A DNA stretch of 64,000 nt, from the NCBI GenBank assembly GCA_944383765.1, contig CALWQT010000002.1, positions 124,001 through 188,000 on the forward strand, given 5' to 3'. A program made the position numbers and the translations under genes. Positions 58,139 through 63,364 of the stretch are shown in pieces. Position 1 is the first letter of the stretch, and each line of letters opens with the position of its first letter. The DNA is from an uncultured Lachnospiraceae bacterium (GTDB lineage: Bacteria; Bacillota; Clostridia; Lachnospirales; Lachnospiraceae). The notes beneath the pieces were generated by a model. The model was given only the letters and a program-made list of their open reading frames with translations, was not told the DNA's origin and did no database searches.

Positions 58139-59512
58139 ATGAGCAGACATATGGATCTGAGTGTCCGGGTTCCCATTGAGCAGGATAATCCTTCCATTAT
58201 CAGAGAGGAAGAACTGTGTATCAAATGTGGAATGTGCCGGAATGTATGCCAGGAAAAAATCGGAGTACATGGAACATACACACTGGAGGAAACAGGAGAC
58301 AGAGCAATCTGTATCCATTGCGGTCAATGTGCGAATGTATGTCCGGTAAACAGCATTCATGAACGCTATGAGTATGGGAACGTGCGGGAAGCAATTCAGG
58401 ATCCGGAAAAAGTGGTGATCGTTTCCACCTCACCGTCGGTGAGAGCGGCTTTGGGCGAAGCCTTTGGCATGCCGGAAGGAAGTTTTGTAGAAGGAAAAAT
58501 GGTAGCCCTGCTGAGAAAACTGGGATTTGACTATGTACTGGATACGAATTTTGCAGCAGACCTTACGATCATGGAAGAGGCAGCAGAATTGATCGAAAGG
58601 CTGAAAGCAGGAGAAAGACTGCCTCAGTTCACCAGCTGCTGCCCTGCATGGGTAGAATACGTGGAAACTTATTATCCGGAACTGATGGGACACCTGTCTA
58701 CAGCCAAAAGCCCTATATCCATGCAGGGACCGACTATTAAAACTTATTTTGCCGGACAGAAAGAGATCAGACCGGAAACCATAGTCAATGTGGCTCTTAC
58801 TCCCTGTACAGCCAAGAAGTATGAGATACGGCGGGAGGAACTTCACGGAGCTGCCGATTATCTGCAGAATCCGGAGATTCGTGACATGGACTATGTGATC
58901 ACCACCAGAGAACTGGCAAAGTGGGCGAAAGAAGAGGGAATTGGTTTCGCTGCTCTGGAAGATGGGAATTATGACGATCTGATGTCAGAAGCATCCGGAG
59001 GAGGCGTGCTGTTCGGAAACAGCGGCGGTGTTATGGAAGCGGCATTGAGGACTGCTTATTATATGCTTACCGGAGAAAATCCGCCGGCTGATCTTTTGGA
59101 GTATGAACCGGTACGGGGCACGGAAGGAGTAAAAACAGGTACGGTTACCATAGGGGAACAGACGCTGAAGGTGGCTGCTGTTTATGGGACTGCCAATGCC
59201 AAGAAACTGATAGAATCCTGGAAACAGGGAGATGTCCATTATGATTTTATAGAAGTGATGACATGTCCGTGCGGTTGCATCGGAGGAGGCGGACAGCCAA
59301 AAGAATATCTGATGATGTCAGGAACCCTGCATGAAAACCGGATGAAGGCATTGTACCGGAAAGAATCAGGGACCAAACTGAGATCCAGTTATGAAAATCC
59401 GGAAATCATAGAACTTTATCAGAAATTTTACGGAGCTCCTCTTCATGAATTATCAGAAAAAATGCTCCATACCCATTATAGAGACAGAAGCGGAGATCTG
59501 GGGAAAAAATAA
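58139..59512 (+). CDS. monomeric [FeFe]-hydrogenase
   Basis: The 457-residue protein has two N-terminal 4Fe-4S motifs (CIKCGMCRNVC and CIHCGQCANVC) and the H-cluster domain with its three signatures: L1 TSCCPAW, L2 TPCTAKKYE and L3 MTCPCGCIGGGGQP. In L2 the usual Met before PC is Thr, and in L3 the segment has an extra Cys. It lacks the extra N-terminal Fe-S domains of the larger fermentative enzymes, so it probably uses ferredoxin as partner. It could evolve hydrogen during fermentation, or sense or dispose of electrons; the sequence does not decide. No maturation genes (hydEFG) are nearby. It has its own promoter. Confidence 0.88.
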   Translation: MSRHMDLSVRVPIEQDNPSIIREEELCIKCGMCRNVCQEKIGVHGTYTLEETGDRAICIHCGQCANVCPVNSIHERYEYGNVREAIQDPEKVVIVSTSPSVRAALGEAFGMPEGSFVEGKMVALLRKLGFDYVLDTNFAADLTIMEEAAELIERLKAGERLPQFTSCCPAWVEYVETYYPELMGHLSTAKSPISMQGPTIKTYFAGQKEIRPETIVNVALTPCTAKKYEIRREELHGAADYLQNPEIRDMDYVITTRELAKWAKEEGIGFAALEDGNYDDLMSEASGGGVLFGNSGGVMEAALRTAYYMLTGENPPADLLEYEPVRGTEGVKTGTVTIGEQTLKVAAVYGTANAKKLIESWKQGDVHYDFIEVMTCPCGCIGGGGQPKEYLMMSGTLHENRMKALYRKESGTKLRSSYENPEIIELYQKFYGAPLHELSEKMLHTHYRDRSGDLGKK

Positions 59513-59556: not shown

Positions 59557-60123
59557 ATGAAGGAACCCTATGAGATCCAGATCATAAGGAGCGGCCGGAA
59601 GACCATAGGAATCCAGATTACCTGGGATTTCCGTGTCATTGTCCGGGCACCGTACAAGGTAACCAGAACGCAGGTCATGGAAATCCTCCGGGAACGGTCA
59701 GAGTGGATTGAAAAAAATCTGGAAAGAATGAGAAATCTGCAGATTCAGAGGGAGAGCGGCGGGGAAAAACTGACGGAAGCAAGGATACGGGATCTTTCCC
59801 GGGAGGCTTCCGTCAGGATTCCAGAACGGGTAGCCCATTATGCTTCGATCGTGGGAGTGACTTATGGAAAGATTACCATCCGCCATCAGAAGACCAGATG
59901 GGGCAGCTGCAGTGGAACAGGTAATCTGAATTTTAACTGCCTGCTGATGCTGGTACCGGAGCAGGTGCTGGATTATGTGGTAGTCCATGAACTGTGCCAC
60001 CGGAAAGAAATGAACCATTCCCCCAGGTTCTGGAAAGAAGTGGAAGCCATTTTCCCTGAGTACCGTGAGGCAAGGAAGTGGCTGAAAGACCATGGTGGCA
60101 GCCTGATCTGCCTGCTTCCATAA
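59557..60123 (+). CDS. YgjP-type (SprT-like) metallopeptidase domain protein
   Basis: The 188-residue protein starts after GGGAGGGGG. It has the family plan: a beta-rich N-terminus (KTIGIQITWDFRVIVRAP), KTRWGSCSGTGNLNFN, and the zinc motif VVHELCHRKEMNHSPRFW, with the HExxH-type site and a downstream His. Members are often found near restriction or repair genes and are predicted zinc proteases; the substrate is unknown. It lies 44 nt after the hydrogenase gene and may be co-transcribed with it. Confidence 0.85.
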   Translation: MKEPYEIQIIRSGRKTIGIQITWDFRVIVRAPYKVTRTQVMEILRERSEWIEKNLERMRNLQIQRESGGEKLTEARIRDLSREASVRIPERVAHYASIVGVTYGKITIRHQKTRWGSCSGTGNLNFNCLLMLVPEQVLDYVVVHELCHRKEMNHSPRFWKEVEAIFPEYREARKWLKDHGGSLICLLP

Positions 60124-60154
60124 AAAGAAAAAAGTCCTTGACTTTTTTCTTTTT
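60122..60154 (+). terminator. A/T-rich perfect hairpin ending the metallopeptidase gene
   Basis: A perfect 15-bp inverted repeat (60122-60136 and 60140-60154, loop CTT) starts in the stop codon of the metallopeptidase gene, and its second arm is the T-rich tract. It is weak in GC but could end the upstream transcript. It contains the -35 box of the next promoter. Confidence 0.5.
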
Positions 60155-60179
60155 TGGTATATACTTGATTAAGTCAAGT
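60138..60179 (+). promoter_or_regulatory. promoter and palindromic operator of the bilQRS operon
   Basis: TTGACT (60138-60143) and TATACT (60160-60165) are spaced by 16 bp. The palindrome ACTTGA-TTAAG-TCAAGT (60163-60179) overlaps the -10 and start site. Palindromes of this size are the usual targets of MarR-family dimers, and a MarR-type gene starts 20 nt downstream, so autorepression is likely. Confidence 0.72.
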
Positions 60180-60198
60180 AACAAAAAGAGGTGATCAT

Positions 60199-60618
60199 AT
60201 GGACAGGACGGGTTATCTGTCAGGATATGCGACATGGTTTTATAAGGATTTTGCCGCTTATACAGCTTCCAGGCTTCAGGAAGTGGGGCTTAATTTTGGC
60301 TTTTTGTATCAGATCTTATATGTGGGAAAACACCCGGATTGTTCTCAGGGAAAACTGAAAGAAGCGCTGAAGATGGACTGGGGGTATTGCCAGAGGAGTG
60401 TGGAGAGGCTGGTAAAGGACGGTTTTTTGAAAAAAGAAAAAAGTGAGGGAGACCGGAACTGGCATTTAAGGCTGAGTGAAAAAGGAGAACAGGCATTTGA
60501 AATCAGCCGCCGGACCTTTGAAGAGTGGGATCAGAAAAAGCTGGCCGGGCTTTCTCTGGATGAGAAAGAAAGCCTGTTTGCCCTCCTTCGGAAAATAGGG
60601 TCGGCACCGCAAAGCTGA
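60199..60618 (+). CDS. bilQ: MarR-family regulator, BilQ-like
   Basis: The 139-residue winged-helix protein has the MarR layout: an N-terminal dimer helix (TGYLSGYATWFYKDFAAYTA), a helix-turn-helix (KLKEALKMDWGYCQRSVERL), a wing (KKEKSEGDRNWHLRLSEKG) and a C-terminal helix. It opens an operon with an old-yellow-enzyme-type reductase and a flavodoxin-like protein. This is the gene set known as bilQ-bilR-bilS in bilirubin-reducing gut bacteria. It probably represses the operon through the palindrome over its promoter and responds to a bile pigment or related ligand. Confidence 0.75.
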   Translation: MDRTGYLSGYATWFYKDFAAYTASRLQEVGLNFGFLYQILYVGKHPDCSQGKLKEALKMDWGYCQRSVERLVKDGFLKKEKSEGDRNWHLRLSEKGEQAFEISRRTFEEWDQKKLAGLSLDEKESLFALLRKIGSAPQS

Positions 60619-60640
60619 GCAGGGAAAGGAGAACCGATTC

Positions 60641-61747
60641 ATGTATGAAAAAATAAAAACCCCGGTCGATTATGGCGGGATTGAACTGAAAAATCCGATT
60701 ATATTTGCTCCCACATCCATGGGACTGCCGGAAGCAGAATTGCTGGAACGATACAGGAAACTTGCAGCAGGCGGCTGCAGTATGATCATCATTGGCGATG
60801 TACCGGTGAAAAAAAGCAGATTTGTTCCTTCCCTGCAGACTGCAAAAGGCTTTGCTTTTTATCAGAAACTGGCAGAGACAGTCCACCAGGAAGGCTGCAG
60901 GATATGCGCCCAGCTTCATCAGTCAGATTCTAACCTGAAAGCCATGGTGAGATACATACCCGGCCTGCTGACCAAAAAGATCAGCCAGGATGACTTGAGA
61001 AATCTTCTGAATCAGGAGGTTGGTCCTTATATTACCAATCTGCCGGTCAAAAAAATCCAGGATATCATACGAGGGTTTGAAGAGACAGCAGTGCTGGCCA
61101 AGAAAGCCGGATTTGATATGATCCAGGTCCATGGAGACCGGATGTGCGGCAGCTTCAGTTCTACGGTGTTTAATCACAGGACCGACCAGTATGGGGGAAG
61201 TCCGGAGAACCGGGCGAGATTTGCCTGCGAGGCGGTTGCGGCTGTGCGAAAGGCAGTTCCTGATATGCCGATTGATTACAAGCTGGCTGTGAGACAGGAG
61301 GATCCTCATTATGGGAATGCGGGAGTGCTTGTGGAGGAACTGGGGATTTTTCTTCCTTTGCTGGAACGGGCAGGAGTGACTAGCTTTCATGTGACGCTGG
61401 CAGATCATGGAGATCTGAATGATACCATACCCACTGCCAGACATCCGTATTTTGGAACGGAAGGCTGTTTCCTGAAATATTGCGATCAGGTGCGGATTCA
61501 CACCAAACTTCCTATCTGCGGAGTAGGCGGTCTGTCTGATCCGGATTTTATAGAACAGCAGCTGGAGACAGGAAGAATCCAGTGCGCGGCCATGAGCCGT
61601 CAGCTGATCGCTGACCCGGAATGGGTGAATCAGGTGATGAAAGGGCGAGAAAAAGAAATCCATTCATGTGTCCGCTGCAATAAAGACTGTCTGGGAGGTA
61701 TGATGGCCCATAAAGGTGTTCATTGTATTTATGAAAGGAGAGGGTAA
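60641..61747 (+). CDS. bilR: bilirubin reductase BilR-like (old yellow enzyme family)
   Basis: The 368-residue protein is a flavin-dependent TIM-barrel enzyme of the NADH:flavin oxidoreductase family: ELKNPIIFAPTSMGL at the start, RICAQLHQ, RTDQYGGSPENRARFACE and CGVGGLSDPDF. It keeps the Cys-rich CVRCNKDC...C cluster motif but lacks the C-terminal FAD/NAD domains of 2,4-dienoyl-CoA reductases. In place of the usual HxxHGYL active-site stretch it has HGDR (His164-Gly-Asp166-Arg167), the motif reported as characteristic of BilR. With the MarR gene before it and the flavodoxin gene after it, this supports reduction of bilirubin to urobilinogen in the gut. Confidence 0.82.
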   Translation: MYEKIKTPVDYGGIELKNPIIFAPTSMGLPEAELLERYRKLAAGGCSMIIIGDVPVKKSRFVPSLQTAKGFAFYQKLAETVHQEGCRICAQLHQSDSNLKAMVRYIPGLLTKKISQDDLRNLLNQEVGPYITNLPVKKIQDIIRGFEETAVLAKKAGFDMIQVHGDRMCGSFSSTVFNHRTDQYGGSPENRARFACEAVAAVRKAVPDMPIDYKLAVRQEDPHYGNAGVLVEELGIFLPLLERAGVTSFHVTLADHGDLNDTIPTARHPYFGTEGCFLKYCDQVRIHTKLPICGVGGLSDPDFIEQQLETGRIQCAAMSRQLIADPEWVNQVMKGREKEIHSCVRCNKDCLGGMMAHKGVHCIYERRG

Positions 61748-61748
61748 T

Positions 61749-62276
61749 ATGAATTATGCAGTGATCTACAGCAGCAGAACAGGAAATACAAGATTATTGG
61801 CAGAAACCGTGAGAGAGAGTATGGCGGAAGGAAACTGCGTTTATTTTGGGGAAACATCAGGGATAGACGACCAGGTACTCAGGGAAGCTCAGCTGGTTTT
61901 TGTAGGATTCTGGACAGATAAAGGAAGCTGTGATGCCTCCGCTGCGGAAGTGCTGAAAAAAATGGACTATAAGGATGTGTTCCTGTTCGGAACTGCAGGA
62001 TTTGGAGGGGCTCCGGCTTATTTTGATCAGATATTAAGCCGGGCAGAAAAAAATCTTCCTTCAACAGCGAGGATTGCAGGAACCTATATGTGTCAGGGGA
62101 AAATGCCTGTGGCAGTTCGGGAACGGTACATGAAGATGAAAGAAGAGGGAAATGCGTCAGCTCAAATTGACAGCATGATTGAAAATTTTGACCGGGCAAT
62201 GAGCCATCCGGATCAGCAGGACATGGAGAAATTAAAGGAAACGGTACATGAGAGCCTGCAGAAGCAGAGTGAATAG
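61749..62276 (+). CDS. bilS: flavodoxin-like protein BilS
   Basis: The ATG at 61749 is chosen for its GGAGAGGG site; an upstream in-frame ATG lies inside bilR. The 175-residue protein has the flavodoxin FMN loop YSSRTGNTRLLAE, VFVGFWTDKGSCD in the middle and the LFGTAGFGGAP loop. It is read as the electron-transfer partner of the BilR-like reductase, whose stop lies 1 nt before it. Confidence 0.8.
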   Translation: MNYAVIYSSRTGNTRLLAETVRESMAEGNCVYFGETSGIDDQVLREAQLVFVGFWTDKGSCDASAAEVLKKMDYKDVFLFGTAGFGGAPAYFDQILSRAEKNLPSTARIAGTYMCQGKMPVAVRERYMKMKEEGNASAQIDSMIENFDRAMSHPDQQDMEKLKETVHESLQKQSE

Positions 62277-62298
62277 AAAAGATAGAGGAGAGATAAAA

Positions 62299-62628
62299 AT
62301 GACAAAAGGAACGAAAATCTGGTTGTGGTTTGCATTGGTATTAGGGCTGGCTACCACAGGGATCAATGCATCTTATGGAAGATGGATTTCGGTAGCCATA
62401 TCCCTGGCTGCCATGGCAGGGCTGGCAGTATTGCTGTTCCAGAAACGGAAAGCAGGATATGTATTTATGTGCGGCTGCTATGTGCTGTCTTTTGTCAGCG
62501 GTGTGATGCAGGGAGTAACCGGCGGAACCGGTCTGATCGTATCCGTAGTCATGTCCCTGATCGGTTCTATGGTGATACCAGGGATTACATGGCTGTTTAT
62601 CAGAAAAAAATGGAAATTTTTAAATTGA
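62299..62628 (+). CDS. small four-helix membrane protein
   Basis: The 109-residue protein begins after AGAGGAGAG, 22 nt downstream of bilS, so it is probably the last gene of that operon. It has about four hydrophobic segments (WLWFALVLGLATTG, SVAISLAAMAGLAVLLF, YVFMCGCYVLSFVSG, LIVSVVMSLIGSMVIPGIT) and short basic loops. No family is recognised. A role in pigment uptake or export would be speculation. Confidence 0.7.
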   Translation: MTKGTKIWLWFALVLGLATTGINASYGRWISVAISLAAMAGLAVLLFQKRKAGYVFMCGCYVLSFVSGVMQGVTGGTGLIVSVVMSLIGSMVIPGITWLFIRKKWKFLN

Positions 62629-62674: not shown

Positions 62675-63364
62675 TCAGGAGATACCCGTCCCTTTTTGTT
62701 GCACCATTTCCAGAAGTTTTTCTTTATTTTCGATAACAAGATACCCGTCCTTTCGGTCAATGATACCCTGATTTTTCAGCTTTTTTGCAATTCTGCTTAC
62801 AGTAACCGGATGGATTCCAAGAAATTTGGCAATCTCGGAAAAGGTAAAGGCTTTAGGGATCACACAGAGTCCTTTCCTGCATACGCAGCAGTTTAACAGC
62901 CATTCGCAGAATAAAATATCTTTGCCTACATCATGGGAATGCTGGACTTTATTGATCACTTCCAGATAATTGATAGTCAGGCTTCCAAGGACTGCATTCA
63001 TAAATGCAGGCATTTCATCAAGCAGATGATTAAAAATAGATTCTTCCATAGCATAAACGACGCAGGGAGTTTTTGCTGTGATCCAGAAAGCAGAAGGGGC
63101 GGCTAACAGGTTCATAGGCTGGTTGGATATATATTTCTGGGCCAGTATCTGGGAAAATCCGATCATCCGCTGTTCGCCAAAATAAAGATATACCTGTTCT
63201 TCTCCATTCGCTCCGATACAGTTGAGAGCAGCGATTCCCTGGTCGAGAAAATAGGCTTCCCCTTTGGGCTGTCCCAGGGTGGGATCGTAAATAGGCTGAT
63301 TTTTCTTTTTTTCCCGCCGGGTTCCGTATGTAATGAATAATTCTCTGATTTCCTGTGTTTCCAT
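62675..63364 (-). CDS. Crp/Fnr-family regulator with a Cys cluster
   Basis: The 229-residue protein has a cyclic-nucleotide-binding-like beta barrel at the N-terminus, a long dimer helix (LTINYLEVINKVQHS) and a C-terminal helix-turn-helix (FSEIAKFLGIHPVTVSRIAK). Four Cys lie within ten residues (LLNCCVCRKGLC) just before the DNA-binding domain, and two more are in the barrel. The cluster could hold an Fe-S centre or sense redox state; this is inference. It is read toward the bil operon and away from the transporter gene, whose promoter region it shares and may control. Confidence 0.85.
   Translation of the reverse strand: METQEIRELFITYGTRREKKKNQPIYDPTLGQPKGEAYFLDQGIAALNCIGANGEEQVYLYFGEQRMIGFSQILAQKYISNQPMNLLAAPSAFWITAKTPCVVYAMEESIFNHLLDEMPAFMNAVLGSLTINYLEVINKVQHSHDVGKDILFCEWLLNCCVCRKGLCVIPKAFTFSEIAKFLGIHPVTVSRIAKKLKNQGIIDRKDGYLVIENKEKLLEMVQQKGTGIS

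Follow-up and report, generated by a model that had tools for sequence, protein, structure and literature searches.

The stretch of DNA analysed here (64,000 nucleotides from an uncultured Lachnospiraceae bacterium, referred to as the window) contains a tight series of four open reading frames on the + strand – bilQ, bilR, bilS, and a gene for a 109-residue membrane protein that we refer to as MemP – separated by gaps of 22, 1, and 22 bases (Table 1). A longer GTG start for bilS at position 61716, included in the list of open reading frames, overlaps bilR and is not required. Identities of the first three genes were assigned with the NCBI (NCBIfam) curated equivalog cut-offs – the BilR model being of the equivalog-domain type – and all three products score above them, such that one operon holds bilQ, bilR, and bilS equivalogs. 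These scores bear out a preliminary description of the locus, in which a bilQRS-like operon was recognized from the order of a MarR-type regulator, an old yellow enzyme (OYE), and a flavodoxin. Judged from its sequence, the operon is a further example of the published bilQRS type, a sound and ordinary assignment. The monomeric [FeFe] hydrogenase encoded two genes upstream was considered as a bil partner and rejected, as it is not found near the bil genes in relatives.

Table 1. Features of the bil locus and its flanks (positions are those of the window).
Feature	Position	Strand	Description
Monomeric [FeFe] hydrogenase gene	58139-59512		Two genes upstream; ferredoxin-type clusters, H-cluster domain, small-subunit domain
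YgjP-like metallopeptidase gene	59557-60123		5′ flank of the bil series
Inverted repeat AAAAAGAAAAAAGTC-CTT-GACTTTTTTCTTTTT	60122-60154	.	Perfect 15+3+15, A/T-rich, spans the -35
Upstream predicted BilQ operator copy	60136-60142	+	Left half-site cCTTGAC only; holds the start of the -35; 8/14
Sigma-70 type promoter	60138-60165	+	TTGACT-16-TATACT; 10/12 consensus matches; same layout in relatives
Downstream predicted BilQ operator copy ACTTGATTAAGTCAAGT	60163-60179	.	ACTTGA-TTAAG-TCAAGT palindrome overlapping the -10 TATACT; 13/14
bilQ	60199-60618	+	139 aa; MarR-family regulator, winged helix; NF045593, 145.7 bits (cut-off 125)
bilR	60641-61747	+	368 aa; short-form OYE bilirubin reductase; NF045592, 553.1 bits (cut-off 425)
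bilS	61749-62276	+	175 aa; flavodoxin-like electron carrier; NF045594, 221.4 bits (cut-off 155)
MemP gene (name given here)	62299-62628	+	109 aa; small membrane protein with four TM helices; no Pfam or NCBIfam match
Crp-type (Crp/FNR-type) regulator gene	62675-63364	-	3′ flank; convergent with the bil operon

The HGDR motif of BilR, placed at residues 164-167 in the preliminary description, lies at exactly that position. In a tree of 37 OYE proteins, in which the Clostridium symbiosum BilR is not placed by name, the window enzyme is nested in a clade of 19 short-BilR rows (100/99 support), and this clade is sister to Clostridioides difficile BilR; the phylogeny proposed earlier as a check on the assignment thus groups it with the short BilRs and not among other OYE groups. 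It is barely credible that this is an HGDR-containing OYE from a neighboring clade, acting on an unrelated enone and set within a bil-like gene order by chance. OYEs are promiscuous enzymes, and lower-scoring HGDR relatives (384-390 bits, below the 425 cut-off) are present in the same genus, but the window BilR reaches 553 bits, lies inside the short-BilR clade, and is adjoined by BilQ and BilS equivalogs. The lower-scoring proteins, from three congeners (L045, L046, and L047), are encoded near an aldo/keto-reductase-like gene, with neither bilQ nor bilS in their 4-kb loci, and are possibly a sister enzyme.

Four cysteines of BilR (C343-x2-C346-N-x2-C350-x11-C362) are invariant across 17 aligned BilRs, fit the CX2CX3CX11-13C motif of Fe-S flavoenzymes (PMC11574389), and align with the cysteines of 1PS9. 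The closest solved folds are those of the Fe-S OYEs 2,4-dienoyl-CoA reductase and 2-naphthoyl-CoA reductase, and the AlphaFold model (pLDDT 87), for which 1PS9 is the best match, is of low quality across residues 348-368, a segment that contains two of the Fe-S cysteines. BilR has the OYE barrel and the aligned four-cysteine [4Fe-4S] motif in common with 1PS9, but its chain ends just past that motif, with no FAD/NAD(P)H domains; BilS is likely to stand in for these. The FMN-phosphate loop of flavodoxins (SSRTGNT) is retained in BilS, as seen by alignment, and the electron route that we infer would pass from the BilS flavodoxin to the CX2CX3CX11C [4Fe-4S] site of BilR, then to the BilR FMN, and then to the pigment, with BilR adding hydride and proton (Asp166/Arg167) to both methine bridges (C5 and C15).

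What a short-form BilR makes is disputed, because urobilin was reported from bilRS alone in a 2024 paper (PMC10769871), whereas in a 2026 preprint the action of BilR by itself is confined to the two methine bridges and gives divinyl products (PMC13252198). BilV is itself an OYE, and bilV accompanies 0.4% of bilR-short species (PMC13252198). The genome studied here (2.58 Mb, 99.55% complete, in 29 contigs) has no second OYE – the window BilR is its single PF00724 protein – and the complete bilirubin-to-urobilinogen pathway of BilR plus BilV is not encoded, although it is unlikely but possible that a bilV was overlooked because the genome is in 29 contigs. Because BilV is missing, the vinyl groups are expected to be retained, and the predicted product of the strain is probably divinyl-urobilinogen, one step short of true urobilinogen. 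The preliminary description had predicted reduction of bilirubin to urobilinogen, and this needs amending for the product while holding for the operon; a failure to form urobilinogen would therefore not count against the bilQRS assignment. The zinc-fluorescence assay is positive for urobilinogen and divinyl-urobilinogen alike (PMC13252198), and mass spectrometry alone thus tells the two apart.

The substrate also bears consideration. In birds, whose excreted pigment is biliverdin, BilR-short is the predominant form, and the C. difficile BilR-S acts on biliverdin with the same divinyl compounds as products (PMC13252198). It is possible, if not probable, that this is a true BilR-type system that naturally acts on biliverdin or a different linear tetrapyrrole instead of bilirubin. 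Against this, the short-form bilRS pairs of C. symbiosum and C. difficile are active in reducing bilirubin – in the case of C. difficile when expressed in E. coli (PMC10769871) – and the substrates are not mutually exclusive.

The earlier observation of a palindrome on the promoter is correct in that the 60163-60179 palindrome overlaps the -10, but there are two inverted repeats, and these had not been told apart. The second (60122-60154) has a predicted RNA fold of -13.9 kcal/mol (z -5.6), far better than shuffles, and possibly forms the hairpin at the end of the ygjP-like gene that precedes it. It has maybe taken the place of the right half of the upstream operator copy, which in the window consists of a left half followed by a pyrimidine tract, at 27-bp spacing to the downstream copy; the same position scores 12-14/14 in most relatives. 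The 13/14 of the downstream copy was never reached in 200 shuffles of the window promoter, and elsewhere in the 64-kb window every site scores below 11/14.

The operator is well represented elsewhere. Two copies of aCTTGAC-NNN-GTCAAGt, 27-29 bp apart and both scoring at least 12/14, are present in 14 of 19 bil promoters, drawn from Lachnospiraceae, Oscillospirales-type, Erysipelotrichaceae, and Peptostreptococcaceae genomes, and the pair precedes bilQ or, in cases with bilQ elsewhere or outside the locus, bilR. In most two-copy promoters, copy 1 contains the TTGAC of the -35, and copy 2 starts within the -10 TATACT, at its final three bases. The consensus was derived from the promoters that it scores, and the weight of the comparison rests on shuffles, with the pairs scoring higher than all 300 dinucleotide shuffles except for rows L009 and L014, and on genome-wide confinement, with 14 of the 16 exact copies in 16 bil-bearing genomes located at bil promoters. 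The remaining two, both from the 15 bil genomes other than the present one, are inside unrelated coding genes (one for an ABC transporter, the other in a flagellar gene region). We found no published description of the operator; in the literature searched, BilQ appears by name in the 2024 paper alone (PMC10769871), where neither of its two mentions comes with an operator.

The simplest reading predicts that BilQ represses its own operon alone, through this conserved candidate operator. As a MarR-type dimer, BilQ would sit on the two palindromes over the -35 and -10 and hold the operon off, and a bile pigment (bilirubin or biliverdin, we infer) would release it. Autoregulation had been suggested earlier, and as a prediction it gains support from an operator that recurs in several orders and, genome-wide, is found almost nowhere but at bil promoters. 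Binding of the palindromes by some other regulator, such as the Crp/FNR-type product of the gene at 62675-63364, is very unlikely; this gene adjoins the operon, convergently, but a homologue was not found in the other operator-carrying bil loci. Moreover, L007 has neither bilQ nor the operator, and in L013 the operator is before bilR with bilQ behind bilR. A BilQ regulon extending beyond the bil operon was also considered and rejected, as the window genome has two exact CTTGA-N5-TCAAG matches and the other one is inside a coding gene; that gene reads as a sulfite-reductase-type redox operon.

MemP has four predicted TM helices and is modeled as a four-helix membrane bundle (pLDDT 80), with no significant match to Pfam, NCBIfam, or PDB folds. 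Among 397 family genomes the best matches, and the only close pair, are the window protein and a Hungatella hathewayi WAL-18680 homologue (L005:7123-7452) that is 56% identical and encoded 21 bp behind bilR. The two occupy the same place at the end of a bil operon, but the Hungatella operon (bilQ-bilR-MemP, L005:5571-7452) is without bilS, which is absent from the 13-kb locus; the short BilR there must therefore receive electrons from a different donor or from a BilS whose gene is located outside that locus. Conservation of the membrane gene next to bilS, raised as a check in the preliminary description, is thus seen in part, with the gene next to bil genes in one other genome but with bilS absent there.

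The suggestion that this gene encodes an undescribed partner is possible in that it adjoins a second bil operon, but is weak in that MemP is present in 2 of about 22 bil operons. For MemP to be a working bil component – for instance by anchoring BilS/BilR to the membrane or feeding them electrons, or as an accessory of a pigment transporter – seems unlikely. Its gene is on the same strand, 22 bp past bilS, with its own Shine-Dalgarno, and its closest relative among the 397 family genomes is directly behind H. hathewayi bilR, but it is missing from about 20 other bil operons, there is no fold match, and bilRS taken from other species is functional in E. coli in its absence (PMC10769871). Nor do the reductases track it, with Hungatella BilR pairing with that of L010, whose operon lacks a MemP gene, and the window and Hungatella BilRs not being sisters. 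The wider MemP family is found beside butyrate genes, an aminopeptidase gene, uvrB, miaB, and rpoB (named by reading the sequences), and these distant relatives in unrelated contexts do not make for a bil-specific family. A more elaborate proposal, that MemP is a partner specific to short BilR, would couple its electron supply or pigment uptake to the membrane, and could substitute for BilS, as in H. hathewayi, under a pigment-responsive two-site BilQ switch, is more doubtful still. The likeliest reading of MemP is a passenger, co-transcribed with the bil genes and belonging to a dispersed family of small membrane proteins.

Small four-TM proteins without Pfam matches (L079:1501-1821, L080:1501-1821, and L104-L111) are scattered through the Lachnospirales beside unrelated genes, and have a conserved KGxKxWLW start and an LLLF-k-k-GF middle. 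Their locations include the interval between the crotonase and 3-hydroxybutyryl-CoA dehydrogenase genes of the butyrate operon.

A close short bilR is present in 7 of the 397 family genomes (10 at a looser 1e-60 threshold) and, within the genus, in only one of nine genomes at scores above the cut-off. This patchy occurrence suggests horizontal spread. A genome of the family (G156) has the same bil locus as the H. hathewayi record, which points to the family being Lachnospiraceae. The base composition of the operon is not foreign (GC 0.46-0.50, not distinct from the upstream flank), and does not mark it as a recent arrival. Carriage of bilR by phages was rejected, with no relative in a scan of viral contigs, as was definition of an insertion site by synteny within the genus, where the eight congeners have ygjP homologues of only about 50% identity that lie in another context, such that no empty site is definable. 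A BilR-like protein (34% identical, with HGDR and the four cysteines) is encoded at L140:3001-4110, in a 93.6-kb Subdoligranulum variabile record (OY725841.1) labeled as a plasmid.

Taken as a whole, the locus is very probably a bilQRS operon in which BilQ would repress from two palindromes, BilR would reduce the methine bridges to give divinyl-urobilinogen, and the fourth gene is most likely a passenger. The gene identities, motifs, clade, operator conservation, and the absence of a second OYE come directly from the analysis; the electron route, inducer, and product are proposed. The operon adds a gut lineage to the bilirubin reducers, as a predicted bilR-only maker of divinyl-urobilinogen, and a predicted divinyl producer bears on the dispute over what short BilR makes. 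The operator offers a testable model for bile-pigment sensing by gut bacteria, and a DNA signature with which to find bil operons and compare their regulation across hosts.

The bilQRS type of operon was already known, and what is added here is the conserved two-site promoter operator and the amended product prediction. The window operon has the same three genes, short BilR, and HGDR at residues 164-167 as the bilQRS operons of C. difficile CD3 and C. symbiosum (PMC10769871), but has in addition the small membrane gene after bilS and a degenerate upstream operator copy, and its BilR is only 46% identical to that of C. difficile. The long-form BilR of Ruminococcus gnavus and the bilR-bilV operons (PMC13252198) share with it a homologous catalytic TIM barrel with HGDR, whereas the window BilR is without the fused flavodoxin/NAD(P)H domains, and BilV was not found in the genome.
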